A DNA stretch of 64,000 nt from Indolivaga alginatilytica (GTDB lineage: Bacteria > Bacteroidota > Bacteroidia > Bacteroidales > Dysgonomonadaceae), in assembly GCF_003201355.1 (NCBI RefSeq), contig NZ_QICL01000005.1:124001-188000 (forward strand). Reading direction: 5' to 3'. Below are positions 11,288 to 35,004 of the stretch, piece by piece (the first letter of the stretch is position 1; each line of letters begins with the position of its first letter). Position numbers and translations under genes: made by a program. The notes beneath the pieces were generated by a model. It saw only the letters and a list, made by a program, of their open reading frames with translations, did not search any database and had not been told where the DNA came from.

Positions 11288-11338
11288 GATTTTAATAGTA
11301 ATTATATAATGCTATATTTTTATTAGTCGTGCCAACCC

Positions 11339-13462: not shown

Positions 13463-13494
13463 AAGCATTAAGGTTTTAGACCTGTTAAATTGAG

Positions 13495-13609
13495 AATAGT
13501 GGGCAGAGATTTGCCTGCCCATGCTATTAAGAAATTCTAGTTGTAGGGGCAGACCTGTGTGTCTGCCCGCTGTGGGTGAACACATAGGTTCACCCCTACT
13601 GAGAACTAG
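13495..13609. repeat. Triple-hairpin REP-like element between GH3 and GH67
   Basis: Three stems follow one another: GGGCAG/CTGCCC (13501-13506, 13515-13520, flanked by AATAG/CTATT), GGCAGAC/GTCTGCC (13548-13554, 13561-13567) and GGGTGAAC/GTTCACCC (13574-13581, 13588-13595). The last two are enclosed by CTAGTT-GTAGGGG (13537-13549) and CCCCTAC...AACTAG (13593-13609). The outer CTAG overlaps the GH3 stop codon (TAG, complement of 13606-13608). It would fold as a branched structure in RNA and could stabilise or attenuate the GH3-GH67 transcript. Confidence 0.75.
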
Positions 13610-16257: not shown

Positions 16258-16321
16258 AATTATCATTATTAAGGTGTGATACCTATTGTTATTTACTGTT
16301 TATATCTATATGAATAATAAA

Positions 16322-16336
16322 AAGGTCTGTGACCTT
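16322..16336. repeat. Short palindrome AAGGTC-N3-GACCTT overlapping a stop codon
   Basis: Perfect 6-bp arms around TGT. On the minus strand the SASA stop codon TAA is the first three bases of the palindrome (TAAGGTCACAGACCTT). Related palindromes occur at 3299-3310, 32052-32066 and 57424-57437, two of them also touching stop codons. Function unknown; too short for a strong terminator. Confidence 0.6.
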
Positions 16337-18269: not shown

Positions 18270-18275
18270 TTTATT

Positions 18276-20783
18276 TTATTTTGATGTCTTACTTTCGGGT
18301 GCTCCCAGATAACTAGGTTTTAACCCACCTAGATCGAGCATTATTTTTTGTAAAACAATTCCGGGATCTAATACTCTGAATCGTATGGTATGCAACCCTG
18401 TTTTGTTAATTTTATGATTCGTCGTGGATTCAATAATGCTATTGGCAACCCAAACTTCTCTTTCCTTTTCAGTATACGTGTGATTGAAGTTTACTATTTG
18501 CTCTTCACTACCATCAATAGATACTGCATATCGCAAGCCTTTATTTGAATTGAAGTTGAGGGTAGGAGAGAGTAAAACAATCAAACGAGCATTACCTGTA
18601 CTTGTCAGGTTAACATCATATTCCAGATATACGTTATCGCCTTCTTTAGGGATAGCAGTTACAGGAAAAGTAGTTATAGCCGAAAGTGTTTTTCCCAAAT
18701 CAGGGATTACTTTCCACGATATATTATTTCCGTTTTTTTGACGTGTAAAATGTTCCGCTTGGATAGAGACATATCCATCCGCTTCGGTGAATATTTTCTC
18801 TTTGACCTCCATTGTGGTCGCAACATATTTAACACTAGGCATCACACTTTTTTGTGGTTGTTGCCAGTAGGTATATCCAATGCGTATCTGATCCATCATG
18901 TGAGCCCATTTACCACCCGAAATATTTTCGTTGTAATGTATTGTCAATAAAGAATCTCTTTCGAAGCATTCTTTAGCTTTATCCGCCCAATAATTTGCCT
19001 GAACATCTTGCTTTTCGGCATAATAACGGTTCTTAGCTACAGCAAAGTACATTTCATACAGGTTAGAACACGCATTGATGGGGAATAATACCAATTGATC
19101 GAAAGCGTCTTTGTAATTATTGGGAATCAGATTATATAAACGCATGGCATCTATAACCAAATTTCTATAATCGTTGACAACGGTTTCAAATTCATTGTAG
19201 TTTTCGAGGCTGTATGTTTTTTCGTTCAGCAATTCGGGTGTAACTCTGCGGTTGTATTTGGTATAAAGATTTATCAAACGAGCCGATTCTTTAGCGTATT
19301 TTTCACCGAATTGTTGTGCAGTCCATTGCTCTGTATGTTGTACCAGATTATCGGCATTGAATCGGTTGGGATTCCAAGCCATATTCAAGAAGAAACTGAT
19401 AGGGTACTCCATTGGTTTAAGATCACCTACATTTACAACCCATATTTTATCGACACCATATTGATAAGTCAGGTTCATTTGTTCCCAGATACGTTGCACT
19501 TGGCTAACATTGAGCCATTTATAATTGCGAGGCCCGCCTACGTAATCGAAATGATAATACATCCCGTATCCGCCTTTGCGTTTAGGAGCATCGAGGTCGG
19601 GAAGTTTGCGAACGTTTCCCCAATTATCATCACATAACAAGAGCGTAATATCATCGGGAACACGCATACCCTTGTCGTAATAGTCCTGCACTTCTTTGTA
19701 TAACGCCCATACTTGTGGAACTGTTTCCGCTTTTTTGCCTGTTACTTTTGATATAATATCTCGCTGATCTTTTACTATTTTTTGAAGCAGGTCGATATTG
19801 CTTTCTTCACTCATGGGTTCGTCACCATCGCCACGCATACCTATTGTAATGAGAGATTCCCAGTTCTTAGCCCGTTCTATACCAGATGTCCAGAATTTGC
19901 GGAGAACATCGCCATTTTTTGTATAATCCCAAGGACCTTCTCCACGTCTTTTCCAATCTTGTTGAGCTAATGCCATTGGTTCATGGTGCGAAGTACCCAT
20001 CACGATTCCGTATTCATCTGCTAAAGGTCCGTTAAGTGGATCGTCATCATAAAAGGCACTTCCCCACATGGCAGGCCATAGGAAATTTCCTTTTAAGCGC
20101 AGGATCAGTTCAAATACCTTTTCATAGAATTGATGATTGTAACCTCCGAAAGTAACTTTGCTCCATCCGGTTAGAGCTGGGGCTTCATCGTTGAGGAAGA
20201 TACCGCGATACTGAACGGCTGGCTCTTCTTCGGTATATGTTCCGGGTTTTACGTACAAGTCTTTTTTAGTTGACACAGGCACATCTGCCCAGTAGTACCA
20301 AGGCGAAACTCCTATTTGTGACGATAATTCATAGATACCGTATATTGTTCCCCGTTTGTCGCTGCCTGCAATTACTAAAGCGGCATCTACTCCGTCGATG
20401 GGATTCATTACGGTTTTTATGATATACTTTTCGTTTTTTCCTGTTAAGTCTTTTGCCTCTATTTTCCCTGTTTGTATCAGTTTGTCTATTATTGCCGATT
20501 TACCGACAGTACCGATAATTAAGGTAAATTTTGCAGCCCCTTGTTGGGGTGTGTTTCCTGTTACTTTCTGAAAATCTTCTTTCAGATCGTTTACCGCACG
20601 TAGTACACCTTTATAGTCCGAATCATCGGTCAGTATAGACATAGGCTTTCCATCAACAGCTAACGGAAAGTAAGAAGCATTTTTCTGTGTGAACACAAAT
20701 TGTTCTTTATCTAAAGCTGATATTGTATTCGAAAAAACAAAAAACAGCAAAAATATAGTCAGATATAAATTTTTCTTAGTCAT
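18276..20783 (-). CDS. Xylan alpha-1,2-glucuronidase, GH115
   Basis: Removes (4-O-methyl-)glucuronic acid from internal as well as terminal xylose of glucuronoxylan. It has 835 aa with a signal peptide ending SNTISA. Family markers are YRGIFLNDEAPALTGW near residue 195, GNFLWPAMWGSAFYDDDPLNGP near 235, MGTSHHEPMALAQQDW near 265, ITIGMRGDGDEPMSEESN near 310, LLLCDDNWGNVR near 385 and WVVNVGDLKPMEYP near 455. The C-terminal ~170 residues form the extra beta-sandwich domain of GH115. It is separated by 5 bp from the GH35-like gene and 6 bp from the esterase, consistent with one transcript. Confidence 0.95.
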   Translation of the reverse strand: MTKKNLYLTIFLLFFVFSNTISALDKEQFVFTQKNASYFPLAVDGKPMSILTDDSDYKGVLRAVNDLKEDFQKVTGNTPQQGAAKFTLIIGTVGKSAIIDKLIQTGKIEAKDLTGKNEKYIIKTVMNPIDGVDAALVIAGSDKRGTIYGIYELSSQIGVSPWYYWADVPVSTKKDLYVKPGTYTEEEPAVQYRGIFLNDEAPALTGWSKVTFGGYNHQFYEKVFELILRLKGNFLWPAMWGSAFYDDDPLNGPLADEYGIVMGTSHHEPMALAQQDWKRRGEGPWDYTKNGDVLRKFWTSGIERAKNWESLITIGMRGDGDEPMSEESNIDLLQKIVKDQRDIISKVTGKKAETVPQVWALYKEVQDYYDKGMRVPDDITLLLCDDNWGNVRKLPDLDAPKRKGGYGMYYHFDYVGGPRNYKWLNVSQVQRIWEQMNLTYQYGVDKIWVVNVGDLKPMEYPISFFLNMAWNPNRFNADNLVQHTEQWTAQQFGEKYAKESARLINLYTKYNRRVTPELLNEKTYSLENYNEFETVVNDYRNLVIDAMRLYNLIPNNYKDAFDQLVLFPINACSNLYEMYFAVAKNRYYAEKQDVQANYWADKAKECFERDSLLTIHYNENISGGKWAHMMDQIRIGYTYWQQPQKSVMPSVKYVATTMEVKEKIFTEADGYVSIQAEHFTRQKNGNNISWKVIPDLGKTLSAITTFPVTAIPKEGDNVYLEYDVNLTSTGNARLIVLLSPTLNFNSNKGLRYAVSIDGSEEQIVNFNHTYTEKEREVWVANSIIESTTNHKINKTGLHTIRFRVLDPGIVLQKIMLDLGGLKPSYLGAPESKTSK

Positions 20784-20788
20784 AATTT

Positions 20789-22411
20789 TTATTTATAATC
20801 ATACAGTTTTACATATTGAATATTCCATTCACCTGTCGGAATACGCAAATGTCTACCCTGGTGGTTTTGATCTCCATTCATGCGGCGGAGCGGTATCATT
20901 TTTCCATCTTTGAATTCTACTTCGTCAATAAAACCGATTCCCGTTTCTGTACCGTCTTTTTTTGTGTTACCAAATGTAACGACTATGCCCGTTCCTGCCA
21001 CAAGATATTCATTTTTTGAGAGTTCTATTATCAATGCCCCTGTTTCGGGCCATTTACTTCCATCTTTTGCCAATGGATTCCATCCTAATGTATAATCGTG
21101 TTTGAAAGTGAAGGTATAACCATTCCTTTCAACAGTACGTTCTTTTACTTCACTATCAAACCAAAATCCGTTTGTTTTGTTCTCTCCTTGCTTTTCTGCT
21201 AAGAGAGGTAATATTTGACGCAGAACTTTATAGCTCTTTGTCAGAGGATATTCTTCGGGATTTGCAGGGCTTTCTATAAAAAACGGACTGAATCCCATCG
21301 CATCGTGTTCACCGAAAGCATAGAAAACTCTTGCTGCATTCCCATCTTCCAGTCTAATTTCTGGTATGAATAAGGGATTGCCGTTTACTTGGTATTGTTT
21401 GCACCAATCGGTAAATCCGGGGTCATAAATATCGGGGGCGAGAAAGTCTATCGCAGGTGCCGATGCTCGCCAGATATCGAGTAGATGAGCCAAAGGCCCT
21501 GCACTCGGATAAGCTCCGGGTTTGCGTTCTCGACTATTCAATGCTGCGTTGAGATACATGGGTAAATTATAAGCATTTTTACCTGTTTGTGCTACTTCCT
21601 GAATAAACAAGCCGTAATTCCAAGCCATAAATAGTTCATCGGTTTCTAATCCTTCCCCAAAAAGTTCGGTCCATATCCCTTTTGTTTTAAAGCCGTTCTT
21701 TTCCCATCTCTCTAGAAGCTGAGGGCGAAGGCTTTGTTTATTTTTCACTAAATAATCGGTCAGTTGTTTGGGAACATCCGATGTAAATAGTTTATTGGCT
21801 TCCTTGCTGTAATCTCTTGCATCTTCGATCATGCCTATCTCATTTTCGACCTGTACCATAATAATAGTTTGCTGAGATTTATCGACTTCTGCCAAATGGT
21901 TCATAAAATGTTTGAATGCACGTTTGTCAATTTCCAGATTATTCTGATTAAAAGCACTTAATATTTCTAATGATTTTCCTGATTTAGTAACGGCTCTAGG
22001 GTATTTTAAATAATTTTCTTTTACCCACATCGGAGCATAGCAAGACATACTGTTTTTCCAGACTCCAAACCAGAGGAATACAATTTTGAGGTTGTGCTTC
22101 CGAGCCAATTCGATAGCACCGTCAACCAAAGTATAATCGTATTTGCCTTCTTCTGCTTCTATGAGTTCCCAATAGGCAGGTACAAGCATTGTATTCAACT
22201 GCATCTTTTGTAGTTTTTCCGATACCCGTTTCATATCCTCTAAGGAGGAAGCTGTTGAATTGCCTAATTCTCCACCAAGTATTAAGAAGGGGTTATCTTC
22301 GACTATTAATTGTGTGGCTGTACCTTTTTTTTGTAGATGTGGTATCTTCCGAGCTTCTGCAACAATAGTAAGAAGAAAGAATAAAGCAAAAGCTATACAC
22401 TTTATCTTCAT
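20789..22411 (-). CDS. GH35-like glycosidase with DUF5597 C terminus
   Basis: 540 aa with an N-terminal signal peptide (cleavage near VAEA). A GH35/GH42-type TIM barrel is recognisable from PFLILGGELGNS, the W/Y-rich LVPAYWELIEAEEGKYDY, the acid/base motif QVENEIG (E191) and the likely nucleophile E351 in FIPEIRLED. The last ~150 residues (about 390-540) look like the DUF5597 beta domain. Characterised relatives such as Cellvibrio Bgl35A are beta-galactosidases; here, first after susCD in a glucuronoxylan operon, it may remove a cap sugar from xylan side chains. Substrate is inference. It is set off from susD by a hairpin at 22437-22472. Confidence 0.8.
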   Translation of the reverse strand: MKIKCIAFALFFLLTIVAEARKIPHLQKKGTATQLIVEDNPFLILGGELGNSTASSLEDMKRVSEKLQKMQLNTMLVPAYWELIEAEEGKYDYTLVDGAIELARKHNLKIVFLWFGVWKNSMSCYAPMWVKENYLKYPRAVTKSGKSLEILSAFNQNNLEIDKRAFKHFMNHLAEVDKSQQTIIMVQVENEIGMIEDARDYSKEANKLFTSDVPKQLTDYLVKNKQSLRPQLLERWEKNGFKTKGIWTELFGEGLETDELFMAWNYGLFIQEVAQTGKNAYNLPMYLNAALNSRERKPGAYPSAGPLAHLLDIWRASAPAIDFLAPDIYDPGFTDWCKQYQVNGNPLFIPEIRLEDGNAARVFYAFGEHDAMGFSPFFIESPANPEEYPLTKSYKVLRQILPLLAEKQGENKTNGFWFDSEVKERTVERNGYTFTFKHDYTLGWNPLAKDGSKWPETGALIIELSKNEYLVAGTGIVVTFGNTKKDGTETGIGFIDEVEFKDGKMIPLRRMNGDQNHQGRHLRIPTGEWNIQYVKLYDYK

Positions 22412-22436
22412 AGTATTATATTCTTTATGTAACGAG

Positions 22437-22472
22437 AAATAAGCCGGACGAAACGAATCGTCGGGCTTATTT
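22437..22472 (-). terminator. Attenuating hairpin between susD and the enzyme genes
   Basis: A 15-bp stem with one mismatch (22437-22451 with 22458-22472, core AAGCC/GGCTT) and a 6-nt loop, starting 8 bp after the susD stop. On the minus strand it ends in AAGCCCGACGA..., TCGTCCGGCTTATTT. As an intra-operon partial terminator it would keep susCD mRNA above that of the downstream enzymes, a common PUL arrangement; that role is inferred. Confidence 0.7.
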
Positions 22473-22479
22473 ATATGGT

Positions 22480-24432
22480 TTATTTATATCCCGGATTTTG
22501 ATAAGTAGTCTTTTCTGCAGCAGTCATCTCCATTCCATTAAGCTGACCTGTGGGAATAGGACGCAGATAAAGGTATGGTTGAATGTCTCTGGTTACCTTC
22601 TCTAACTTATGATTTCCAACACCGGAACCACATATTTCATTACTGGAAGCATACTCTTTCCAGGTTTGAGTGCGTACCAGATCCCACCAACGATAACCTT
22701 CACCGAAGAATTCGCGTGAACGTTCAGCTAAAATGTAATCTATAGTGATAGTCGCAGGAGTTGCAGCAATCATAGCAGCACTATTGTCTTGTAATTTAGC
22801 CATATTACCATTGTTACTCCAACGCCACTTACCGGCACGTGCACGAAGTACATTCACCAACTCTCTGGCACTTTTACTACCTGTGGCTCCTTTTACTGCC
22901 GCTTCGGCTGCTACCAGATACAGTTCGGAGAATTTGGCTATAGGGAAAGGACGGGTGATACTACCGTTCGGTTGTCCGAGTCCGGTGCCATTGTCTGTTC
23001 GATAAGTGCCAAGCTTCCAAAGACTCGGATAAGAATAACGGCTTATGGCGCTTGGTGCTACTACAAAATCGGCTCTTCCCGGTAACACGCCGGCACCTAC
23101 ATTGCTTTTGTATTTAGAGTTAGAGTAGTCGATAGGCGTCGCAGGTTCTTCGTCAAGGAAAGTCAGGATTGCATCACCCGGATATACAGGCATACCATTT
23201 GCATTATAAAGAACCTCATTTTTTACACCAGCCTTGTTCCAGTTAGCACGGAAGGTTGTCACAAATGTTCCGTCGTAACGTGAATCATTGGCTTTATCGG
23301 CAAAAGTCTTGGTTATTGCACCTATGGTGGGGGCTATACGTGTCCATGGACGTCCGTAGGCTTGTGCTGCTTCACGCTGAACAGTTCTTATTTTAGCTCC
23401 GCTCCAATCAGCAGTAGTAGCACTTTCCATACCAGTATAATCCCATGTAACCATCCAAACTGCAAAATTTCCCGGAGATGATCCAGTACTGTATCCATGG
23501 TCTTGCTCACCATCGTAATATTGGCTTGCTTCAGTATGGTCGGCATATAGTAGCATTTCTTTATTCCGATCATTTTGTGCCAGATTAACATCATAATATG
23601 TGTCTTGCAAGCCATAAGGGCCGGGATTGGCAATAGCTGCGGTTGCTATGTCATAAGCTTGCTGATAATACCACTGGGGGTTATGATTGTCAGGATCAGT
23701 TCTGGCAGTCTCCGGATAAGTAGGTATGTTTTTTGGGTTTTCAAGCCACCAGCCATAGGTAAGATAAGCTTTGGCTAAAATCAAGCGGGCTAAAGTCTTG
23801 CTGACACCGCCGGTAACACGTCCTTTATCCGGTAAATCGTTTATTGCAATAAGCAAGTCCGGAAATACTGCCTTGGTGTATACTTCAGGAACAGTATTGC
23901 GGGCAGAAGTCCTGGTAGTAGAAGTGTTGAATTTCAACTCACCTGCTCCTAAATCCAAAGGTACTCCACCAAAAGTTTGTACCAGTGTAAAATAATCAAA
24001 TGCCCTGAAAAATCTGGCTTCAGCAATTAGTGCTGCTGAAATAGTTTCTATTTGGGTACCATTTTCAATAATACCGCTGGCAGTGTTGATGTCATAGAAT
24101 GCTCTTCCCCATAATACATCGGAACGGCTGCTGGATGGAGTAAGTGATCCCGTCCCCGAAAGATCCATATCATTGGCATTGTTATCAGCCAGACTCCCGT
24201 ATGTATACTCATCAGTTGCGGCTTCACACGCGATAAGCCAATATCCGTTTCCATAAACGTAGCGTAGATTAGCATAAAGCGAGGTTACTCCACCAATAAC
24301 ACCATTTTCGGTTTTGAAAAATTCGGGTGTATAAATACCACGTGGAGTTTCATTCAGAATATCGGAACACCCTGTAAAGAGAGATGCTAAAAGAACTGTT
24401 GCGATATATTTTTTTATATGTATTCGTTTCAT
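22480..24432 (-). CDS. RagB/SusD-family glycan-binding lipoprotein
   Basis: Surface lipoprotein that caps the SusC-like barrel and binds the glycan. 650 aa; the lipoprotein signal MKRIHIKKYIATVLLASLFTGC gives lipidated C22. SusD hallmarks are DILNETPRGIYTPEFFKTENGV near the N terminus, the TPR-like helices (EARFFRAFDYFTLVQTFGGVPL near 135-160) and the C-terminal RAGKW...ILAERSREFFGEGYRWWDLVRT (about 535-600) ending LRPIPTGQL. At 650 aa it is longer than average SusD (about 550). It begins 11 bp after susC. Predicted ligand: xylan, from context. Confidence 0.95.
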   Translation of the reverse strand: MKRIHIKKYIATVLLASLFTGCSDILNETPRGIYTPEFFKTENGVIGGVTSLYANLRYVYGNGYWLIACEAATDEYTYGSLADNNANDMDLSGTGSLTPSSSRSDVLWGRAFYDINTASGIIENGTQIETISAALIAEARFFRAFDYFTLVQTFGGVPLDLGAGELKFNTSTTRTSARNTVPEVYTKAVFPDLLIAINDLPDKGRVTGGVSKTLARLILAKAYLTYGWWLENPKNIPTYPETARTDPDNHNPQWYYQQAYDIATAAIANPGPYGLQDTYYDVNLAQNDRNKEMLLYADHTEASQYYDGEQDHGYSTGSSPGNFAVWMVTWDYTGMESATTADWSGAKIRTVQREAAQAYGRPWTRIAPTIGAITKTFADKANDSRYDGTFVTTFRANWNKAGVKNEVLYNANGMPVYPGDAILTFLDEEPATPIDYSNSKYKSNVGAGVLPGRADFVVAPSAISRYSYPSLWKLGTYRTDNGTGLGQPNGSITRPFPIAKFSELYLVAAEAAVKGATGSKSARELVNVLRARAGKWRWSNNGNMAKLQDNSAAMIAATPATITIDYILAERSREFFGEGYRWWDLVRTQTWKEYASSNEICGSGVGNHKLEKVTRDIQPYLYLRPIPTGQLNGMEMTAAEKTTYQNPGYK

Positions 24433-24443: not shown

Positions 24444-27400
24444 TTAGAATGTTAGATTTAAACCTATCAGGAAGTTACGTGTTGAAGGGGTATTTGTTCC
24501 TATAACCAAAAGACGTTTCTGGTATACGGTGGTAACTGCTTGATTTTCGTTACCAAGAGAGTTTGTTTCAGGATCCATTCCCGACTCATCATGATAGGGC
24601 GAAAATAGTACAAACGGATTTTGTATCGTAGAATAAATATATAATTTATTAATACCTAAATTTTTAGATAATTGAGGACTGAAAGTATACCCTAGTGTAA
24701 TATTGCGTATTTTCAGATATGTTGCATCAAAATAGCCGAGGGTACTGCCATATTTGGGGTTGTCGTTATTTGTTATACCTCCGGGTTTAGGATATTTGGC
24801 ATTGGTATTTTCGGGAGTCCAATAATCCACTTTCACATTTCCTCTTCGTCCGTTCAACATATTGAGATATCCTGTTGAAGAATAGAGGGAACTAATGAGG
24901 ATTCCACCTCTCTGGAAAGCTCCGATGACGTTAAAGTCGAAGCCTTTGTAAGCGACACGGGTGTTGAAACCTCCTTGAAAATCAGGATTTACATCTATGA
25001 CTTGTTTATCGGCATCTCCAATCGCTCTCTTGGGTGAACCGTCCTCGTTAAACTCGCCGGTATATTTCACTTTAATCATACCTGCATTTCCTCCGGGTTC
25101 CAGAATATCACGATATTTGTCTCCTTCTTGCCAAAGACCTATCTTCTCATAATCATATATTACATTAATAGGATGTCCCACAAACCACCAGTTATCTCTA
25201 TCTTCTTCTTGTCTGGAGGTAAGTCCAACCAACTTGTTTCGATTAGTATAGAAATTGACGCCAACATCCCATGACCATCCATTGTGATTGTCTAATATAG
25301 TTCCATTAAGTGTAAGTTCAAATCCTTTATTTTGAGATTTTCCGATATTTGCCATATAACTGCCTACGCCTGTTGTTGCAGGTAGATTCACTCTAAACAA
25401 AATATCTTTAGTGTTCTGCACATAATATTCTGCACTACCTGAGATTCTGCCGTTTAGAAATGAAAAGTCTGCACCATAATTCCATGTTTCAGAATATTCC
25501 CAGCCTAAATTTTGATTTGGCAGCTCGGAAACATAGTACCCCACTGTATACTCATTCCCAAAATTGTAAGGTCTGGTACTTAGAAGTCCAAAGGTTTTGT
25601 AGGGATCTATAGATTCATTGGAAGTTTGTCCGTATCCAACTCTTAACTTCAAATTATCCATCCATGTGATACCGTCCATAAATGCTTCTTTCCTGATATT
25701 CCAGCCTGCAGATACTGCAGGATAAGTATGCCATTTATTCCCCTGGGCCAATCTGGAGGAAGCATCAGACCTAAATGCCACACTTACCATATAACGATCG
25801 TCGTAAGAGTACATGGCACGTCCCATCCAAGACATCAAACCACTCTGGTAATATCCCTGATTAGCGGGACTTACTGTAATTTCACCTGTCGCTTGTCCCA
25901 AATTGTAGAATTGAAAGGCGTCATCAGGAATACCCTTTGCCGACATCTGAGATTTGTTATATTGAGTTTCCTCTGCCGAGTATAATGCTACAACGTTTAG
26001 TGAATGTTTTTCTGAAAAAGTGCGGTCGTAAGTCACCAGATTTTCGACTGCCCAGTTAGTTGTATGTGAATTAGAGACAGTTGCTGTTGAGGGATTATTC
26101 GGATCGTAGCTGAATACACCTTCTCCCGTATAACTACCTGTATTGTTCTGGCGATAGTTTAAACCTAAGTTAAGCCTGTATTTCAATCCTTCCACACCCG
26201 GAATTTTTACTTCACCATATACCGTATTGTATGAACCAAATGCTCTGCCTTGATCTATCCATTTATCACCTAGGGCATTTATTGCATCTCTTGAATATGC
26301 CCATTGTTCGTCACCTGCCATTTTTACGGTTCTTTTCCATGTACCGTCTGCATTATAAGGGTTAGAGATTGGCGTAAGACTTAAGGTACCGTATGTACCC
26401 AAATTACCTCCATTGGAAACAGAATAGTTATTATTTGTGATGAACCCAAATTTCAAACTCTTGCCTATTGCCTGATCAAGTGTACCCCGCATTGAATAAC
26501 GGGTAAAGTTTTGTTGAGGTATCAAGGCTTCATCACGTAAATAGCCAAGGCTGAAATTATAACTTCCCTGTTCGGTACCACCTAAAATGCTTAAATCGTG
26601 ATTGGTTACCATACTGTTTTGATACAATAGGTCTTGCCAGTTGGTATTTACGTCATTCGATTCGTCTGGTCCATTTTGATATTTCCCTGCAAATTCACGT
26701 AGTTTGGCATACTCTTCTCCATTCATCATCGGATATTTGGAAAAAAGGGTTTTCAGTCCGACAAATCCATTGTAAGATACCGATGCTTTGGCTCCGGTTT
26801 GTCCCTTATTAGTGGTAATCATTAAAACTCCATTTGCTCCACGAGAACCATAAATGGCTGTTGCTGATGCGTCCTTTAGAATATCGATACTCTTAATATC
26901 ACTGGGATTAATGTCGCTTATAGATCCTGGAAACGGAATTCCGTCCAATACAATTAGCGGATCATTACTAGCATTCAAAGAACGTGTACCACGAATACGG
27001 ATTTGCATGGGTGACCCCGGTTTAGACGAGGTTTGAGACATGTCTACTCCGGCAAGGCGACCATATAGAGCCGACGAAACATCGGTGGCTGCCATTTCCT
27101 TAATGGCATCTCCTTTTATGGAAGCGACAGAACCTGTTACAGCCTCTTTACGCTGAGTTCCATAGCCGATAACTACCACCTGATCCAATACTCTTACATC
27201 TTCTTGTAGTACGACGTCAACTTTGGTTCTTCCTGAGACATCAATTGTTTGAGTAATGTACCCTAAATAAGAAAAGTCAAGTCTCGCTTTAGAGGAAACA
27301 TTCAGTGTGTATTGTCCTTCCAAGTCGGTGACGATACCATTAGTTGTACCTTTTTCCACCACACTCACTCCTATAATAGGATCACCTTGGGCATCTTTCA

Positions 27401-27500
27401 CAATTCCTTTTACAGATATATTTTGTGCAGACAACCACAGCGGAATAAAGAGGAATAATAACAAAACCCGTATGGGTTTCTTGATAATAATGTCTTTCAT
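24444..27500 (-). CDS. SusC/RagA-family TonB-dependent glycan transporter
   Basis: Outer-membrane importer for xylo-oligosaccharides (from context). 1018 aa: signal peptide ending PLWLSA, carboxypeptidase-regulatory-like domain (about 28-105, VKGIVKDAQGDPIIGVSVVEKG), TonB box region VLDQVVVIGYGTQRKEAVTGSV, plug with the SusC signature IRIRGTRSLNASNDPLIVLDGIPF and DILKDASATAIYGSRGANGV (about 165-225), then the 22-strand barrel. First gene of the xylan operon; the upstream region carries four TGTWACA-type boxes (27697-27763) shared with the GH43-GH10 promoter. Confidence 0.96.
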   Translation of the reverse strand: MKDIIIKKPIRVLLLFLFIPLWLSAQNISVKGIVKDAQGDPIIGVSVVEKGTTNGIVTDLEGQYTLNVSSKARLDFSYLGYITQTIDVSGRTKVDVVLQEDVRVLDQVVVIGYGTQRKEAVTGSVASIKGDAIKEMAATDVSSALYGRLAGVDMSQTSSKPGSPMQIRIRGTRSLNASNDPLIVLDGIPFPGSISDINPSDIKSIDILKDASATAIYGSRGANGVLMITTNKGQTGAKASVSYNGFVGLKTLFSKYPMMNGEEYAKLREFAGKYQNGPDESNDVNTNWQDLLYQNSMVTNHDLSILGGTEQGSYNFSLGYLRDEALIPQQNFTRYSMRGTLDQAIGKSLKFGFITNNNYSVSNGGNLGTYGTLSLTPISNPYNADGTWKRTVKMAGDEQWAYSRDAINALGDKWIDQGRAFGSYNTVYGEVKIPGVEGLKYRLNLGLNYRQNNTGSYTGEGVFSYDPNNPSTATVSNSHTTNWAVENLVTYDRTFSEKHSLNVVALYSAEETQYNKSQMSAKGIPDDAFQFYNLGQATGEITVSPANQGYYQSGLMSWMGRAMYSYDDRYMVSVAFRSDASSRLAQGNKWHTYPAVSAGWNIRKEAFMDGITWMDNLKLRVGYGQTSNESIDPYKTFGLLSTRPYNFGNEYTVGYYVSELPNQNLGWEYSETWNYGADFSFLNGRISGSAEYYVQNTKDILFRVNLPATTGVGSYMANIGKSQNKGFELTLNGTILDNHNGWSWDVGVNFYTNRNKLVGLTSRQEEDRDNWWFVGHPINVIYDYEKIGLWQEGDKYRDILEPGGNAGMIKVKYTGEFNEDGSPKRAIGDADKQVIDVNPDFQGGFNTRVAYKGFDFNVIGAFQRGGILISSLYSSTGYLNMLNGRRGNVKVDYWTPENTNAKYPKPGGITNNDNPKYGSTLGYFDATYLKIRNITLGYTFSPQLSKNLGINKLYIYSTIQNPFVLFSPYHDESGMDPETNSLGNENQAVTTVYQKRLLVIGTNTPSTRNFLIGLNLTF

Positions 27501-27949
27501 GATGTTGGTAATAAAATTAGTAATTAAGAGGTTACTCTTTTTTAGTTTTAAATAAGTATAGATTCTTAAAATGTGTCTATGGCATTTCTATTCATTCAGG
27601 TTTTTATTTAAATTATTTAACATTTTTCTTAACGTTTCGAAATTAGGAATAAATAAGTTATTGACTGCTCTAAAATGTATCTTGTTATTTTGATGCTGTA
27701 ACATGTTTTGTATGCTTGTTACATTTTGTTTTGTATGTGTTACATCTTATTGTTTGTGATACAATAAGCTCTGTTTTATGAGACTTTATACACTATTTTT
27801 TATTTAATAATTAGATTATTCTTTATATTTGGTGCTATAGTAATTATGTATCCTTACGAAATCTAGTATCCCGCAATCCTTATCTTTTGACTTTATCATG
27901 AAGTAGAAAGGTTTGTTGTGGAAATATTGAATGAATCAATATATAACCA
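27501..27949. other. 449-bp divergent promoter region, susC / HTCS
   Basis: Spacer between divergent susC and the HTCS gene. It holds the TGTWACA box array (27697-27763). A possible susC -7 sequence TACATTTT on the minus strand (27672-27679) would give a leader of about 170 nt. For the HTCS gene I see only a near-match (TATCTTTTG around 27881). No ORF or RNA gene recognised. Confidence 0.5.
27697..27763 (-). promoter_or_regulatory. Candidate HTCS operator array upstream of susC
   Basis: Core TGTWACA occurs at 27697-27703, 27717-27723 and 27738-27744, with a one-mismatch copy TGATACA at 27757-27763. Start-to-start spacing is 20, 21 and 19 bp, about two helical turns. Read in the susC direction the cores are TGTATCA, TGTAACA, TGTAACA, TGTTACA. 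The same core, in the same orientation to the gene and at 21-bp multiples, precedes the GH43-GH10 gene. Binding by the adjacent HTCS is inference. Confidence 0.65.
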
Positions 27950-30900
27950 ATGAAAAAATCTGCAATCTTAATACTAATTTTAATAAGTATTTTATTTAAT
28001 AAGGGAATTACTGCCCAAAACCGTGAATATTATTCTACCGACAATGGATTATCTAACAGCCTTATCAATCAGATTTATCAGGATAAGAAAGGTTTTATCT
28101 GGGTTGCTACCGAATACGGTTTAAATAGGTTTGATGGTAGTAATTTTACGATTTATAAGCATATTGACGGAGATTCTACTTCACTTAAACATAACTATGT
28201 ACGTACTTTGTTTGAAGATAGTTCAGGGAATCTTTATGTGGGAACTATATTAGGACTTATGAAATACGATTGGGCTACAGACTCTTTTGATGATATAAAG
28301 ATGTATCGTGAAGGAAAGCTTGTACGCCCTCATGTAATTTCGATAATTGAAACTCATAATGGAGATATTTGGCTGACAACTTCGGGGCAAAGTGTTTTTA
28401 TCCTGAAAAAGGGAACAGATAAGGTTTTGTCTGATCCTGCGTTAACAAAATCTCTCAGTAGTAGTTTTCTAAATTGTATTTTTCAGGATTCAAAGTTTAA
28501 TATTTGGATAGGTTCCGAAAATGACGGACTCAACCGTTATGACCCCCGAACAAAGACAACCACTATATTTAAAGCTCCGCACGATATTAGCAGCAACAAT
28601 ATATCGGCTATCAAAGAGGATATGGAAGGCAATATCTATGTAGGCACGCTTACGCAGGGTTTGAATAAATACAATCCGCATACACAAACTTTTGAGACCA
28701 TTTTATACAAGGGAAGCACGCAGTTTCTTGTAAACTCATTAATGATAAATAAAGAAGATCAGTTGTATATTGGAACTGACGGGCAGGGATTGATGCTATA
28801 TAATCGAGAAAAAAATATAATAGAAGATTATGAAGTCAACTCTCCTCCTTTTGATTTCTCTAAAGGAAAGATACATTCTATTTTGCAAGACAAGGATCAG
28901 AATCTGTGGTTAGGAATTTTTCAGAAAGGAATAATTTTCATACCGGTTTTAGAGAATAAGTTTAATTATTACGGATATAAATCATTTAAGAATAACCCTA
29001 TCGGTTCTAGTTGTGTTACTGCAATTTATAAAGATCGGGAAGGTATCACATGGGTCGGTACCGACAACGATGGTATCTATGGTATAAACAATAATGGTGT
29101 GCGGGTTGCTCATTTCTATCGGACGGCTTCTCCCCATTCGGTGCCTAATATTATACATTCTATTTTCGAAGATTCATCGGGCGATATTTGGTTGGGTTCC
29201 TATGCAAATGGGTTGGCTAAATTTAACTCGAAGACTGGATACTGTGAATACATTAATCGTTTTAGCAATGAAAGAGTGTACTGCATAACCGAAGAAAAAA
29301 ATAAGAATCTTCTCATTGGTACATATGGTTCGGGCTTTTTTATGCTGGATAAACAAGGGAAAGAATTGAGCCAGTATGAAACTTCTAAGCAAGAGAATGA
29401 CAGTCTTTCGATGGACGAATTATCAAATGACTGGGTTAATTATATGATTTGCGACAGTGATGGTTTAATCTGGATAGGGCATTATAAGGGGATTAGTTGT
29501 TTTGATCCATCCAGAAAGACATTCCTGCCTTACTTCGGCAGGAATAATTTACTTCCCGGTACTGTTGTTTTGTCTATACTCGAAGATAAAGCCGGAATGA
29601 TATGGATAGGAACTTCCTCCGGCTTATATTGCTTTGATAAGCAGACTCAGCAGATGAAATCGTATACTACCAAAAATGGCTTATCGAACGATGTTATATG
29701 TGGTATTTTAGAGGACGATCAAAATAATATATGGGTAAGTACCTATAACGGGATCAGCAAATTTAATAGTAAGGATAATCGTTTTATCAATTATTATGCA
29801 AGCGATGGATTACAGGGGAACGAATTCACCCGGGCGGCAGTATTTAAGGATAGTAACGGAAAACTATTTTTTGGAGGTATCAATGGTGTGACAAGTTTTA
29901 ACCCGAAAGAAATAGTGGAAGAAAAACGGGAGCTAAATATCTTATTAACGAACTTCTATTTATTTAACCAACCTATAAAGAAAGGGGATAAATCGGGAAA
30001 TAATGAGATAGTCTCAACATCTGTTTTAGATGCCGACTTGTTTACATTATCATATTCGGATAATACATTCAGCTTTGAATTTTCGACTCTCGATTTTATT
30101 AATCCCGAACGGATATCTTACCAGTATATGATTGAGGGTTTAAACACAGAATGGATGAGTACTTCTCCCGGAATCAGTAGGGTAACATATAATAACCTGC
30201 CTTCGGGCACCTATACATTTAAGGTAAGGGCTTACGATAATGACAATTATTCACCAGTCAAAACTATTCGTATTGTTATTACTCCTCCCTGGTACAAAAC
30301 GGTATGGGCATACGGTGCGTATGCACTTTTGTTTATTTTCCTTGTATATGGAATAGTCGGATATCTTTTTTCGAGGATTCGCTACAAACAGGAAATGATG
30401 GAAAAAGATCATGCTGAAAAAATAAGTGAAGCGAAATTGCAGTTTTTCATTAATATTTCGCATGAAATAAGAACTCCAATGACACTAATTATTAATCCGT
30501 TGGAAAAGTTGATCTCCGAAAATAAGGATGTTGATAAGCAAAAAGTGTATATGATGATTTATCGAAATTCGCAGCGTATACTTAGGTTAATCAATCAATT
30601 AATGGATATTCGTAAACTTGATAAAGGGCAGATGCAGCTTAAATGCCGTGAAACGGATATAGTCGGATTTATTGAAGATTTAATGCTGACCTTCGAATAT
30701 CAGGCGAAACGGAGCAATATAGATTTTACATTTGAACATAAGGATAAGTTGTTGAAAGTTTGGATCGACCTGAATAATTTTGATAAAGTGTTGCTGAATA
30801 TTTTCTCGAATGCTTTTAAGTATACACCCGAGCACGGAAAGATTACCGTAAAACTGACAACAGGTATAAACACTTCAACAAGAGGGCCGTTAAAAGAATA

Positions 30901-32053
30901 CTTTGAAATTAGTGTGTCCGATACAGGTATTGGTGTTGATAAAGATAAAATAGAAAAGATATTCGAACGATTCTATCAGATAAATAACGATCAGACTAAT
31001 TCTAATTTCGGTACGGGTATCGGCTTGCATCTTTCGCGTCTGTTGGTCGAATTACATCATGGAATTATCTATGCTGAAAACAGAACCGATAAGCGGGGAA
31101 GTCATTTTGTTATTCGTCTGCCTTTAGGTAATGCTCATTTCAATCAAGAAGAACTTCAGATTTTTAATGAAAGTGAAACGTTGCTTGAAAATCGTACGGC
31201 AATCAGAACTGAAACAAGTAATAAGTTTGAAGAAGAATTTGAAGAAGATTCCGGAAAACGTATTAAATCAAGGACAAGATATCGTATTCTGATAGTTGAA
31301 GACGAAGATGAGATAAGGCAATATATGAGAGATGAACTATCGTCTGAATACCGCATTAAGGAATGTAAGAATGGTAAAGAAGCTCTCGAATACATATTGA
31401 AAGAGAAACCCGATTTAATTATCAGCGATGTGATGATGCCCGAAATGGATGGTATTGCCCTTAGTCGCCGAATAAAGCAAAACATCAATATAAACCATAT
31501 TCCTGTTATACTGCTGACCGCTAAATCGAAAACCGAGGATAAGCTCGAAGGGCTCGAAATTGGTGCAGACGCCTATCTGGTAAAACCGTTTAATACCGAT
31601 ATCTTAAAACAAACGATAAGTAACCTGATTGCAAATAGAGAACGGTTGAAAAGTAAATTTACAGGTAGCCAGCACCAAGAAGATAAGATTGATAAGATAG
31701 CGATGAAGTCTGCCGATGAAATTTTAATAGAAAGGGTAATGAAGGTTATCAATGCAGACCTTTCCAATCCCGATCTGAATGTAGAGATGCTTGCAAGCAG
31801 CGTTGGAATCAGCCGTGTACACATGCACCGAAAACTAAAGGAGCTTACCAATCAGTCGGCTCGTGATTTGATTAGGGGAATAAGGCTTAAGCAGGCAGCA
31901 GCCTTATTGATAAGTAAAAAACTGTCTGTTTCGGAAGTGGCTTATGCTACGGGATTTTCCAATTTATCCCATTTTTCTAATTCATTCAAAGAATTCTATG
32001 GAATGTCGCCTTCGGAGTATATTAATTCGAATTTTACGCAGGAATCTGATTAA
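27950..32053 (+). CDS. Hybrid two-component system regulator (HTCS) of the xylan PUL
   Basis: One-protein sensor kinase plus response regulator, 1367 aa, inner membrane with periplasmic sensor. Order: signal sequence (1-22), about fourteen beta-propeller repeats of the two-component regulator type (WVATEYGLNRFDGS..., about 30-700), Y_Y_Y domain (about 705-775), TM near 783-808, HisKA with H838 in INISHEIRTPMT, HATPase (about 925-1060, including NIFSNAFKYTPEHG and GTGIGL), receiver domain (about 1110-1230) with phospho-acceptor D1160 in IISDVMMPEMDG, and an AraC HTH (about 1265-1360). It lies between the divergent susC operon and the GH43-GH10 gene, both probably its targets. Confidence 0.95.
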   Translation: MKKSAILILILISILFNKGITAQNREYYSTDNGLSNSLINQIYQDKKGFIWVATEYGLNRFDGSNFTIYKHIDGDSTSLKHNYVRTLFEDSSGNLYVGTILGLMKYDWATDSFDDIKMYREGKLVRPHVISIIETHNGDIWLTTSGQSVFILKKGTDKVLSDPALTKSLSSSFLNCIFQDSKFNIWIGSENDGLNRYDPRTKTTTIFKAPHDISSNNISAIKEDMEGNIYVGTLTQGLNKYNPHTQTFETILYKGSTQFLVNSLMINKEDQLYIGTDGQGLMLYNREKNIIEDYEVNSPPFDFSKGKIHSILQDKDQNLWLGIFQKGIIFIPVLENKFNYYGYKSFKNNPIGSSCVTAIYKDREGITWVGTDNDGIYGINNNGVRVAHFYRTASPHSVPNIIHSIFEDSSGDIWLGSYANGLAKFNSKTGYCEYINRFSNERVYCITEEKNKNLLIGTYGSGFFMLDKQGKELSQYETSKQENDSLSMDELSNDWVNYMICDSDGLIWIGHYKGISCFDPSRKTFLPYFGRNNLLPGTVVLSILEDKAGMIWIGTSSGLYCFDKQTQQMKSYTTKNGLSNDVICGILEDDQNNIWVSTYNGISKFNSKDNRFINYYASDGLQGNEFTRAAVFKDSNGKLFFGGINGVTSFNPKEIVEEKRELNILLTNFYLFNQPIKKGDKSGNNEIVSTSVLDADLFTLSYSDNTFSFEFSTLDFINPERISYQYMIEGLNTEWMSTSPGISRVTYNNLPSGTYTFKVRAYDNDNYSPVKTIRIVITPPWYKTVWAYGAYALLFIFLVYGIVGYLFSRIRYKQEMMEKDHAEKISEAKLQFFINISHEIRTPMTLIINPLEKLISENKDVDKQKVYMMIYRNSQRILRLINQLMDIRKLDKGQMQLKCRETDIVGFIEDLMLTFEYQAKRSNIDFTFEHKDKLLKVWIDLNNFDKVLLNIFSNAFKYTPEHGKITVKLTTGINTSTRGPLKEYFEISVSDTGIGVDKDKIEKIFERFYQINNDQTNSNFGTGIGLHLSRLLVELHHGIIYAENRTDKRGSHFVIRLPLGNAHFNQEELQIFNESETLLENRTAIRTETSNKFEEEFEEDSGKRIKSRTRYRILIVEDEDEIRQYMRDELSSEYRIKECKNGKEALEYILKEKPDLIISDVMMPEMDGIALSRRIKQNININHIPVILLTAKSKTEDKLEGLEIGADAYLVKPFNTDILKQTISNLIANRERLKSKFTGSQHQEDKIDKIAMKSADEILIERVMKVINADLSNPDLNVEMLASSVGISRVHMHRKLKELTNQSARDLIRGIRLKQAAALLISKKLSVSEVAYATGFSNLSHFSNSFKEFYGMSPSEYINSNFTQESD

Positions 32054-32066
32054 GGTCGCAGACCTT
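32052..32066. repeat. Palindrome AAGGTC-GCA-GACCTT overlapping the HTCS stop codon
   Basis: Perfect 6-bp inverted repeat whose first two bases are the last two of the HTCS stop codon TAA (32051-32053). Same architecture as at 16322-16336 and, on the minus strand, 3299-3310. Could act as a weak terminator (T-rich CTTATTG follows) or be a repeat remnant. Confidence 0.6.
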
Positions 32067-32165
32067 CTTATTGCTTTGGCTGGGCATAACAATTAGAGAC
32101 TGTTATGTTGATAAAATATCGCATTAAATATTTAACGCTACTTAATATAATAGGCTTCAAACCCT

Positions 32166-32241
32166 ATTTGTAACAAATAGCAAAATAAATGTTACAAATG
32201 AAATAGCTGTGGTTTCGTATTGAAAAGGATGTGTAACAAAT
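32166..32241 (+). promoter_or_regulatory. Candidate HTCS operator upstream of the GH43-GH10 gene
   Basis: Three copies of TGT(A/T)ACAAAT on the plus strand at 32169-32178, 32190-32199 and 32232-32241, starting 21 and 42 bp apart, exact multiples of two helical turns. The first is embedded in the odd palindrome ATTTGT-A-ACAAAT (32166-32178). The last ends 4 bp before the -33 TTTG. The position suits an activator; the core matches the susC upstream array. Confidence 0.7.
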
Positions 32242-32245
32242 ATTC

Positions 32246-32276
32246 TTTGGAAGTTATTGTACTCATTTTACATTTG
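32246..32276 (+). promoter_or_regulatory. Bacteroidota-type promoter of the GH43-GH10 gene
   Basis: TTTG (32246-32249), 19-bp spacer, TACATTTG (32269-32276): a perfect TTTG-N19-TAnnTTTG. The predicted start site lies about 20 nt before the ATG at 32302, so the leader is short. Confidence 0.8.
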
Positions 32277-32301
32277 CATAACATCATATTTGAATCATGT
32301 T

Positions 32302-35004
32302 ATGCAGAAAATCTTAAAGCTAATACTTATCACCGCTATCGGTTTTCAATTTAATCCTTTAGTAAATACACCTGTTTCGGCACAAACCAATCAGGCTAAA
32401 TTTGATTATTTTGAATATAAAGGCAATGACAGCCGATTCAACCGAAAAATCGATTCGAAGAATGAGTATTTTAATCCCATAGTCAGCGGATTCTATCCCG
32501 ACCCCAGTATCTGCCGCAAAGGAAACGACTACTATATGGTACATTCTACATTCTCGTATTATCCGGGAGTACCCATACTGCACAGTACCGATTTAGTCAA
32601 CTGGACACAGATTGGTTTTATATTGAACCGTCCTTCACAATTAAAGCTGGATGGCATCCGATTGTCGGGAGGAATATATGCACCCGATATACAATATAAT
32701 AAGCACAACGATACTTTCTACATGATAACTACGAGTGTAGACGGTATTGGCAACTTTATAGTAAAAACAAAAGATCCGAAGCAGAATAATTGGTCTGAAC
32801 CTATACCTCTTACCAATGTTGGAGGGATAGACCCGTCTTTGTTTTTTGATGATGATGGTAAAGCATATATTATACATAATGATGCACCCGAAGGAACTCC
32901 CGAATGGAACGGGCACAGAGCAATCTGGATACATGACTATGATACGCAGACCGATAAAACATTCGGAGAACGTAAATTGTTGCTTGACGGAGGGGTAGAC
33001 CGCAGTACAAAGCCTGTCTGGATAGAAGGTCCTCATATTTATAAAGTAAACGGAAAGTATTATCTGATGGCTGCCGAAGGAGGAACAAGTGTAAATCATT
33101 CGGAAGTAATACTTCGTTCCGACAATGTAAAAGGTACGTATGTTCCTTATGAAAATAATCCGATCTTGACACAACGCGGTATGTCTGAACCACGCCCCGA
33201 TATAGTAACCAGTGTTGGTCATGCCGATTTAATAGAAACTCCCACCGGAGAATGGTATGCCGTATTTTTAGGATGCCGCCCTTATGAGGGGAATCACTAC
33301 AATACAGGACGTGAAACGTTCCTTCTGCCTGTAAAGTGGAAAGATGGCTTTCCAATAATTTTAGATAAAGCAATTCCTGTTCCCACTGTTGTGAAGAAAA
33401 AAGGACTTACCCCGAATAGTACAAACTACTTTACAGGTAATTTCACATGGCGAGACGATTTCGAGCTAAATACTTTAGCTAAAGAATGGTTACTTATTCG
33501 TCCCCCCCGTGGTGAATGGTGGAATCTGAAAGATGGTAATCTTATACTGAATGCTATTCCACGAAGTATTTACGATGTCGATAATCCTGCTTTTATCGGT
33601 CGCCGTCAGCAACATCTTATTTTTGAGGCAGAAACAGAAGTACAATTTACTCCTAAGAATTCTCTCGATTTGGCGGGATTGGTCTGTTATCAGAACGAGG
33701 TATTTAATTTTGTCTTCGGGAAAACAATAGAAAACAATAAAGAGGTATTAGTATTAGATCGTTCGGAAAAAGAAAGGAAACGTATAGTTCAAATTCCCAT
33801 ATCTGACGAATATCTACAAAGTCCTGTAAAACTAAAAGTTACAGGTGTAAATGATAAATATAGCTTTTTTGCCTCTTTCGATGCAGGAAACACATGGCAA
33901 ACGGTTGCCGAAAATGTAGATGCGAAAAACCTGAGTACACAATCAGCAGGTGGATTTACAGGAGTAATGATCGGGATGTATGCCTCTTCGGCAAATGTAA
34001 TCCCTGCATTGAAAGAGGTATATAAGGATGATTTTCAAATGGGAGTTGCTGTATCGATGAATCATCTTGTGGGTCAGGAGGCTGCCATGATAAAGAAACA
34101 TTTCAACAGTTTAACGGCTGAAAACGATATGAAACCGGTAAACCTTTTGGTAAAGGGTGGGGGATACAATTATAAGAAAGCCGATCGTATTGCCAGTTTC
34201 GCTCGTGACAATAATATGAAACTGCGTGGACATACGTTAGTTTGGCACAATCAGACTCCCGAATGGTTTTTCTTAGATGATAATGGTAATCCGCTTGATT
34301 CAATTGCATTATACAATCGTATGGAGAAGTACATGACAGATGTAATGACTCATTTTAAAGATGATGTATATTGTTGGGATGTAGTGAATGAGGCATTATC
34401 CGATAAACCCGATGAGTTTTACCGAATCGACAGCCCTTGGTATAAGGCGTGCAAAGAAGCATTTATAGAGCGTGCTTTCAGAACAGCTCATCGTATTAAT
34501 CCCAATATAAAATTGTTTTATAACGATTATAACCTTGTACAACCTCAGAAAAGAGAGAAAGCCTATCAATTGCTTAAACGTTTGAAAGAGGCAGGTGTAC
34601 CCATTCATGGAGTAGGTATGCAGGGACATTGGAGTATGGATATCACCCGCGAAGATATTCAGAAGTCGATAGATATGTATTCATCCCTTGGTCTCGAAAT
34701 TCAGATAACAGAACTAGACCTTACGGTTTATACTACTTATCATGGGGAAGGAGTGAAAAATCAAGTAAAGGAAACCCGTGCATGGACTCCCGAACTGGCT
34801 AAACAACAATCTGATATGTATAAAATGATATTTGAAGTGTTCCGTGCCAATAGAGGGAAAATCAGCAGTGTTACTTTCTGGGGATTGGCAGATAACTATA
34901 CATGGTTGCATAATTTTCCTGTTCTGAATAGACGTGACTATCCTTTTGTGTTTGACACTGACTTAAATACGAAACAAAGTTTTTGGAATATAGTGGAATT
35001 TTAA
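32302..35004 (+). CDS. Secreted bifunctional GH43-GH10 xylan hydrolase
   Basis: 900 aa from ATG 32302; the earlier in-frame ATG at 32257 lies before the promoter and would put 15 residues ahead of the signal peptide (MQKILKLILITAIGF...VSA). The N-terminal five-bladed GH43 domain (about 50-385) has D67 (FYPDPSIC), D177 (GIDPSLF) and E242 (WIEGPHIY), so it should act as beta-xylosidase or arabinofuranosidase. A beta-sandwich (about 390-565) follows, then GH10 endo-xylanase (about 570-900) with acid/base E697 (DVVNEAL) and nucleophile E804 (QITELDL). All catalytic residues are present. Own promoter, opposite strand to the main operon. No lipobox or T9SS tail. Confidence 0.95.
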   Translation: MQKILKLILITAIGFQFNPLVNTPVSAQTNQAKFDYFEYKGNDSRFNRKIDSKNEYFNPIVSGFYPDPSICRKGNDYYMVHSTFSYYPGVPILHSTDLVNWTQIGFILNRPSQLKLDGIRLSGGIYAPDIQYNKHNDTFYMITTSVDGIGNFIVKTKDPKQNNWSEPIPLTNVGGIDPSLFFDDDGKAYIIHNDAPEGTPEWNGHRAIWIHDYDTQTDKTFGERKLLLDGGVDRSTKPVWIEGPHIYKVNGKYYLMAAEGGTSVNHSEVILRSDNVKGTYVPYENNPILTQRGMSEPRPDIVTSVGHADLIETPTGEWYAVFLGCRPYEGNHYNTGRETFLLPVKWKDGFPIILDKAIPVPTVVKKKGLTPNSTNYFTGNFTWRDDFELNTLAKEWLLIRPPRGEWWNLKDGNLILNAIPRSIYDVDNPAFIGRRQQHLIFEAETEVQFTPKNSLDLAGLVCYQNEVFNFVFGKTIENNKEVLVLDRSEKERKRIVQIPISDEYLQSPVKLKVTGVNDKYSFFASFDAGNTWQTVAENVDAKNLSTQSAGGFTGVMIGMYASSANVIPALKEVYKDDFQMGVAVSMNHLVGQEAAMIKKHFNSLTAENDMKPVNLLVKGGGYNYKKADRIASFARDNNMKLRGHTLVWHNQTPEWFFLDDNGNPLDSIALYNRMEKYMTDVMTHFKDDVYCWDVVNEALSDKPDEFYRIDSPWYKACKEAFIERAFRTAHRINPNIKLFYNDYNLVQPQKREKAYQLLKRLKEAGVPIHGVGMQGHWSMDITREDIQKSIDMYSSLGLEIQITELDLTVYTTYHGEGVKNQVKETRAWTPELAKQQSDMYKMIFEVFRANRGKISSVTFWGLADNYTWLHNFPVLNRRDYPFVFDTDLNTKQSFWNIVEF

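Follow-up and report, generated by a model that had tools for sequence, protein, structure and literature searches.

In gut Bacteroidota, hybrid two-component systems (HTCSs) rank with the most common regulators of loci for plant fibre. For 16 HTCSs of Bacteroides thetaiotaomicron, operators were predicted in 2013 as direct repeats averaging 21 bp, with two sites each, upstream of susC and other genes of polysaccharide utilization loci (PULs); these regulators possess an AraC-type helix-turn-helix (HTH), their monomers were proposed to lie on one face of the helix, and similar HTH domains were found to share similar motifs (PMC3878776; here and below, statements on cited papers refer to the accessible parts of their text). 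Proteins consisting of an HTCS receiver and HTH shift susCD promoters in gel assays (PMC11253607). Here we describe a 64,000-nucleotide stretch of Indolivaga alginatilytica (contig NZ_QICL01000005.1, positions 124,001 to 188,000; G000:C5:124001-188000 in our numbering of genomes and contigs), called the window and taken from an assembly of 5.12 Mb in 73 contigs, in which two arrays of the box TGTWACA flank an HTCS gene, one before a susC-like gene and the other before a gene for a GH43-GH10 enzyme. Very probably, these arrays are the operators of the HTCS whose gene lies between them (27950-32053) and which presumably senses xylan.

The boxes are real, and chance does not come near to accounting for them. 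Exact TGTWACA boxes are present where an earlier note on this DNA had read them, before susC at 27697, 27717 and 27738 and before GH43-GH10 at 32169, 32190 and 32232, with spacings of 20 and 21 bp in the first array and of 21 and 42 bp in the second. The elements of both arrays, with the susC boxes written on the gene strand, are the following.

27738..27744, minus strand: susC array, slot A, distal, TGTAACA
27717..27723, minus strand: susC array, slot B, TGTAACA, 21 bp from A
27697..27703, minus strand: susC array, slot C, TGTTACA, 20 bp from B
27676..27682, minus strand: susC array, slot D, proximal, degenerate AGATACA, 21 bp from C
27638..27645, minus strand: susC -7 element TAATTTCG, one mismatch to TAnnTTTG, 30 bp past slot D
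27640..27746, minus strand: complete susC promoter array as found by a profile trained on relatives; 39.5 bits, E 2.2e-11 in the window
27757..27763, minus strand: fourth susC box of the earlier note, TGTATCA, 19 bp from its neighbour, probably no site
32169..32175, plus strand: GH43-GH10 array, slot A, TGTAACA
32190..32196, plus strand: GH43-GH10 array, slot B, TGTTACA
32211..32217, plus strand: GH43-GH10 array, slot C, degenerate core GGTTTCG (4/7)
32232..32238, plus strand: GH43-GH10 array, slot D, TGTAACA
32246..32249, plus strand: TTTG at the -33 position of the GH43-GH10 promoter
32269..32276, plus strand: GH43-GH10 -7 element TACATTTG, 30 bp past slot D
32167..32279, plus strand: complete GH43-GH10 promoter array by the profile; 34.9 bits, E 6.1e-10 in the window

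On the gene strand, the better model consists of four slots spaced 21-20/21-21 bp, of which the proximal one is usually degenerate, with the -7 element TAnnTTTG 30 bp after it. Scanning for four slots plus a -7 element revealed the same layout in relatives, A-21-B-20/21-C-21-D-30-TAnnTTTG. Slot D of susC, absent from the boxes listed earlier, is kept in 3/3 close species, and both this slot and the -7 element TAATTTCG are conserved in the closest orthologous promoters (genomes G034 and G032), which do not keep the core of the fourth box proposed at 27757. In the GH43-GH10 array, slot C occupies the 42-bp gap between exact boxes and retains the GAAAA half-site; the last box ends 7 bp before TTTG, not 4 bp as had been claimed. 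The arrangement TTTG (32246-32249), N19, TACATTTG (32269-32276), described earlier as a perfect promoter, is indeed present before GH43-GH10 but is peculiar to that gene, as 20/21 promoters have no -33 TTTG. An equal orientation of the boxes relative to both genes had been claimed as well; because TGTWACA is its own reverse complement, the core alone gives no orientation, but the longer profile does orient both arrays toward their own gene (for susC, 39.5 bits versus 10.7 when reversed).

As direct repeats with a period of about 21 bp that precede PUL genes, these arrays are of the kind predicted in B. thetaiotaomicron, and the earlier note, in stating that base-level definition exists for few HTCS operators, gives those predictions too little credit. 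They differ in that the B. thetaiotaomicron motifs have two conserved sites each, whereas 3-4 units, the proximal usually degenerate, occur here in another family, and in that the gap to the -7 element is fixed here at 30 bp, whereas a promoter register is not discussed with those predictions in the text accessible (PMC3878776). Among the entries listed by searches of the open PMC literature, which covered neither subscription papers nor the additional files of PMC3878776, we found no description of a four-unit array, of its weak proximal unit, of an HTCS box-to--7 register or of the lacking -33. The 21-bp direct-repeat kind of operator had thus been predicted before, and the present arrays add a new member to it, with an extended four-site layout.

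Taken singly, TGTWACA words show no clear enrichment across the window (15 versus 9.6 expected, a count reached in 7/100 shuffles). The spaced pair TGTWACA-N13-15-TGTWACA, in contrast, occurs at four places in the 5.12-Mb genome, three of them in the window; the fourth (G000:C2:210401) was rejected as an operator, as it lies within an open reading frame (ORF) and outside the 26 profile matches. In a scan for four slots plus promoter, the two window arrays scored 31 each and no other place reached 25, with a maximum of 27 in 20 dinucleotide shuffles. The two-turn spacing noted earlier turned out to be strongly kept across relatives: all 44 exact-box pairs lying 8-90 bp apart, counted in 25 stretches from 17 HTCS loci after overlapping stretches had been deduplicated by context and with nested pairs included, fall near multiples of 21 bp (8 at 20, 18 at 21, 8 at 41, 6 at 42, 2 at 63, 1 at 64 and 1 at 85). 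Seven control heptamers gave one pair in total across the same HTCS-locus stretches, and no exact-box pair was found in four stretches with HTCSs of 41-46% identity. Nor was an exact pair (8-90 bp) present in the 20-kb regions around 14 further HTCS genes of this genome, located via Reg_prop.

For searches in this genome and its family, a sequence-only profile was built from 19 aligned promoters of 13 relatives, excluding the window species and its two nearest relatives; from 31 scan rows outside the window, 7 repeat places, 4 rows from G032/G034 and 1 near-identical row had been dropped. In the window genome, the profile found three places at E 1.9e-9, 4.9e-8 and 2.6e-7, followed by a next value of 0.12 among the best 150 of 6723 candidates. 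The best two are the window arrays, oriented as their genes. The third (C6:5553-5644) lies on another contig, 75 bp before a GH10-GH43 gene, and by eye shows three boxes at 21-bp intervals, one exact and two near, with TACTTTAG 30 bp past the last. This gene belongs to a distant arabinoxylan-type cluster (L139 3199-10298, G000:C6) with an esterase, GH8, GH10-GH43 and GH127, of which the GH10-GH43 gene carries the same array. Equal arrays are hence not scattered over the genome, as these 3 profile matches in 5.12 Mb all stand before xylan genes.

Homologues of the HTCS (E<=1e-250; 6 candidates scored per genome) are present in at least 23 of 101 family genomes, with at least 30 matches, and the profile (36 candidates scored per genome) gave 44 matches at E<=1e-3 in 21 of these 101 genomes, 20 of which carry the HTCS. 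A profile match adjoins each of the 18 family HTCSs that are at least 47% identical, although 12 of the 16 genomes involved had supplied training promoters. For HTCSs below 47% identity, the array stands next to the gene in one case (G030, 40%), and the others have none or a weak or distant match. Within the 88 family genomes that did not contribute to training, matches occur in 8/11 with the HTCS and in 0/77 without it (Fisher 2.6e-9), so that the array is conserved upstream of orthologous targets and tracks the orthologous HTCS. In Dysgonomonas sp. HGC4 (L035) both arrays were found; two contigs with a GH43 about 60% identical (L036, L037), where HTCS presence was not checked, have no profile match at E<=0.01. 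Together, conservation beside the HTCS and scarcity in the genome support the probable HTCS regulon proposed in the earlier note.

The genes behind the arrays point in the same direction. As first gene after the 44 family matches, which include three of the window genome and 19 training promoters, we found 20 SusC homologues, 14 GH43 (one by Pfam), 1 GH10-GH43, 1 esterase homologue, 1 GH35-like gene, 2 HTCS genes, one of which results from reading a susC array in reverse, and 5 others (a flavin adenine dinucleotide (FAD) oxidoreductase, a GH32, an array read antisense, a 203-aa ORF not annotated here and one match without an ORF in reach). Of the 25 matches not used for training, 8 stand before SusC homologues, 10 before GH43 genes and 1 before GH10-GH43; the remaining six are the reverse reading and the 5 others just named. 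In G034 (C1:3325629-3345687), GH43-GH10 is inverted and lies about 13 kb from the HTCS with its array intact, which indicates that the array travels with the gene.

Beyond the boxes, the promoters share a fixed register. Promoters recognised by sigma-ABfr have TTTG around -33 and TAnnTTTG at -7 (PMC7366714). The -7 element is exact in 19/21 promoters and has one mismatch in the other 2, these promoters having been selected with the element in view, whereas TTTG at N18-21 is present in 1/21, the GH43-GH10 promoter of the window, and is not present in the susC promoter. Distances from exact boxes to the -7 element, measured for 518 TAnnTTTG sites in 26 loci, peak at 58 (18), 78/79 (19), 99/100 (12) and 37 bp (6), against a mean of 0.83 per distance. 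Slot D, usually TGAAACA or TGATACA and with A as third base in 14/19 promoters examined, sits 37 bp before the -7 element even when degenerate.

In a wider sample of 393 genomes of the order, at least 24 encode the HTCS at E<=1e-300 (2 candidates scored per genome). Outside the family, which leaves 387 genomes provided that the six listed family members are all, the profile (9 candidates scored) matched at E<=1e-6 in 8/19 HTCS-positive genomes and in 2 of about 368 others. The boxes also correlate with the first recognition helix of the HTCS. Defining a first recognition helix as SRVH-like when it has VH at its third and fourth place, which was readable in 62/66 HTCS loci, exact-box pairs are found in 17/36 SRVH-like loci versus 1/26 others, a correlation that is confounded by ancestry and for which flanks of 1.5 kb at most loci were searched; the genome of the sole non-SRVH locus with a pair also has SRVH-type HTCSs.

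The evidence does not extend the exact array, its layout and its register to HTCSs in general. Self-similarity upstream of TAnnTTTG in 62 regions (60 near the 14 other HTCS genes plus the two window promoters) gave no general rule of a 20-21 bp lag, with a best score of 26 versus 28 at lags 17-19 and a mean of 8.3 versus 7.4-8.0. In a blind k-mer test, GTTACA (15/30 loci) and TGTAACA (12/30) came out on top for the present HTCS group, with 0 in control spacings, and no comparable k-mer was found in two control HTCS groups of 30 loci each (best 5/30). As a separate observation, another HTCS locus of this genome (L230, G000:C27; susC promoter at 11949) carries a 21-bp direct repeat of its own, GTCYGATTTTAAGACATTGT, whose core word differs.

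Several points weigh against assigning the arrays to this HTCS and against the four-slot model. The genome searches are heuristic, with partial scoring of first-look candidates, and the profile E-values are rough. No match was found in 3/11 held-out HTCS-positive genomes (G005, G006 and G063, with HTCSs 37-46% identical), while G025 and G090 have only weak matches (E 1e-4 and 1.7e-5), that of G090 before the FAD oxidoreductase. Of the held-out genomes, G003 and G092 are similar to a training promoter, as are G032 and G034 to the window; with several of the eight near training or window species and two weak, 8/11 versus 0/77 overstates independence. Six of the 44 matches have no homologue of the window PUL behind them, of which one is a GH43, one a GH32 and one the antisense of a true array. 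Outside the family, at E<=1e-3, 15/19 HTCS-positive genomes match and 28 of about 368 HTCS-negative ones do too, which reveals background at that level, and 19/36 SRVH loci have no exact pair. As the training promoters were chosen by a scan requiring the -7 element, the profile cannot prove the register; the box-to--7 distances support it partly, 7 of the 26 loci having come from pattern or model matches, and also include 4 counts at 44 bp, a small number without an explanation. Finally, the claim of four slots is weaker than that of three boxes, with D degenerate in susC and C in GH43-GH10.

This last point bears on the alternative that survives best, namely that the sites do belong to the HTCS, but that one dimer occupies two slots and the extra boxes are spare or alternative sites without a four-fold complex. 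We consider this a serious though lesser possibility. It agrees with the two sites per operator of the published predictions (PMC3878776), with the degeneracy of slot D in most promoters and of slot C in GH43-GH10, and with the presence of two exact boxes in the G092 and G001 promoters and one in the C6 promoter of the window genome. Yet degenerate slots stay in register (D at 37 bp, with its preferred third-base A), and four-slot arrays with the same 21-20-21 pattern recur in several genomes.

It is improbable that the boxes bind another regulator, such as a Crp-like global regulator (BT4338) or another dimeric factor, while the HTCS acts elsewhere. The self-complementary TGTWACA is what a two-fold dimer would be expected to bind, and ATGTT resembles half of the Crp-like motif TATGTTnTAnAACATA (PMC3878776, PMC11501099). 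However, the arrays are direct repeats with an asymmetric second half-site and follow one HTCS subfamily instead of all genomes, and a global site would be expected before many genes, not at the 3 places in 5.12 Mb that the profile matched. We rejected the Crp-like palindrome as an account of the arrays: their one match to TATGTTnTAnAACATA (27734-27749) carries 3 mismatches, a level at which the window holds 17 matches versus 10.3 expected, and the sole perfect window match (2061-2076) lies away from them. That perfect match is found about 0.3 kb before a phosphomethylpyrimidine-kinase/PfkB-like ORF (2383-3207). Likewise discarded was TGTTACA as a regulatory site in a Porphyromonas RprY paper, where the word belongs to a 16S primer.

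An origin of the boxes as AT-rich words arisen by chance, or by duplication within the locus, is already refuted, despite the slight over-representation of single boxes in the window, by the register conserved over several genera and families, by the uniform pair spacing and by a window score that 0/20 shuffles reached.

For the arrays as operators of the intervening HTCS, we propose the following mechanism. The HTCS would sense a xylan-derived oligosaccharide in the periplasm and, as expected from its family membership, phosphorylate its own receiver domain, upon which its AraC-type HTH would bind head-to-tail with one monomer per 21-bp unit. AraC-type HTH domains contact two successive grooves. 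TGTWACA could be read by one helix-turn-helix and the A-rich, GAAAA-like patch about 11 bp further by the other, and up to four monomers could line up on one DNA face over slots A-D; spacing, asymmetry and HTH type all fit such head-to-tail AraC-type monomers, one per two helix turns. With a box that ends 30 bp before the -7 element, the proximal unit would overlie the would-be -33 element, so that the bound regulator might substitute the missing -33 contact and recruit RNA polymerase to the susC operon and to GH43-GH10. The position of this unit, in promoters without a -33, fits direct recruitment of RNA polymerase, and the missing -33 element suggests a concrete activation mechanism.

The regulator may also activate, in trans, the GH10-GH43 gene elsewhere in the genome. 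A precedent for control of a distant xylan gene is found in Bacteroides xylanisolvens XB1A, where mutation of the xylan HTCS of PUL 43 lowered the expression both of that PUL and of genes belonging to another xylan PUL (GH67, GH10) (PMC4855328). That HTCS acts beyond its own PUL, as is proposed here; its control was demonstrated by mutation and reverse-transcription quantitative PCR, with no operator given in the text accessible.

A more demanding reading is a strict promoter grammar of one subfamily across several Bacteroidales families, with four head-to-tail monomer sites spaced 21-20/21-21 bp, a deliberately weakened proximal TGAWACA in place of TGTWACA, a -7 element at a distance of exactly 30 bp and a lacking -33. 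We regard this grammar, including the two readings that would follow from it, as tentative, at slightly less than an even chance. If true, two stacked HTCS dimers would cooperatively take the place of the sigma contact at -33 in an all-or-none manner, and a preference for TGTWACA could be read off from SRVH in the first recognition helix. Published HTCS sites are, in the texts accessible, two-box predictions without promoter context; the present locus is a well-resolved new example of this predicted kind of switch, with sites, spacing, -7 register and three genomic targets defined sharply enough for testing by footprints and spacing mutants, and the operator definition allows prediction of xylan regulons in unstudied genomes.

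The genes of the locus are arranged as follows.

27950..32053, plus strand: HTCS, presumed regulator, with Reg_prop propellers, Y_Y_Y, HisKA, HATPase, receiver and AraC-type HTH
24444..27500, minus strand: susC-like TonB-dependent transporter, first gene of the presumed target operon
9151..24432, minus strand: remainder of the presumed susC operon, with SusD, GH35-like/DUF5597, GH115, SASA esterase, GH3, GH67, UxuA and a short-chain dehydrogenase
32299..35004, plus strand: GH43-GH10 bifunctional enzyme, second presumed target

On the minus strand the order is SusC, SusD, GH35-like/DUF5597, GH115, esterase, GH3, GH67, UxuA and dehydrogenase, with gaps of 5-145 bp, and on the plus strand the HTCS is followed by the GH43-GH10 enzyme. 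Pfam assigns SusC/SusD together with GH10, GH43, GH67 and GH115, and judged from these enzyme families the locus is probably a glucuronoxylan-type PUL. Within the same genus as the relative carrying both arrays, the predicted xylan PUL 17 of Dysgonomonas mossii similarly combines an HTCS with GH10, GH43, GH67 and GH115; its study concerned esterases, and the word promoter is absent from the paper (PMC8040265).

According to Pfam, the HTCS unites a sensor (Reg_prop and Y_Y_Y), HisKA, HATPase_c, Response_reg and HTH_18 in a single chain. By sequence it matches PDB 12aw chain A (E 1.1e-53), the solved response-regulator part of an HTCS, which likewise comprises a receiver and an AraC-type HTH, a likeness by sequence only. 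An S/CHIP-DK interdomain motif was reported in most HTCSs, its S/CHIP position being said to keep the DNA-binding domain inactive (PMC11253607); the receiver of the window HTCS has NHIP at the HIP position, with the first residue differing, and its D-K pair was not located. A second HTCS of the window (58002-62060, minus strand), in whose surroundings no exact TGTWACA pair is present, stands divergent to a susC-like gene that extends from about 62636 past the window end.

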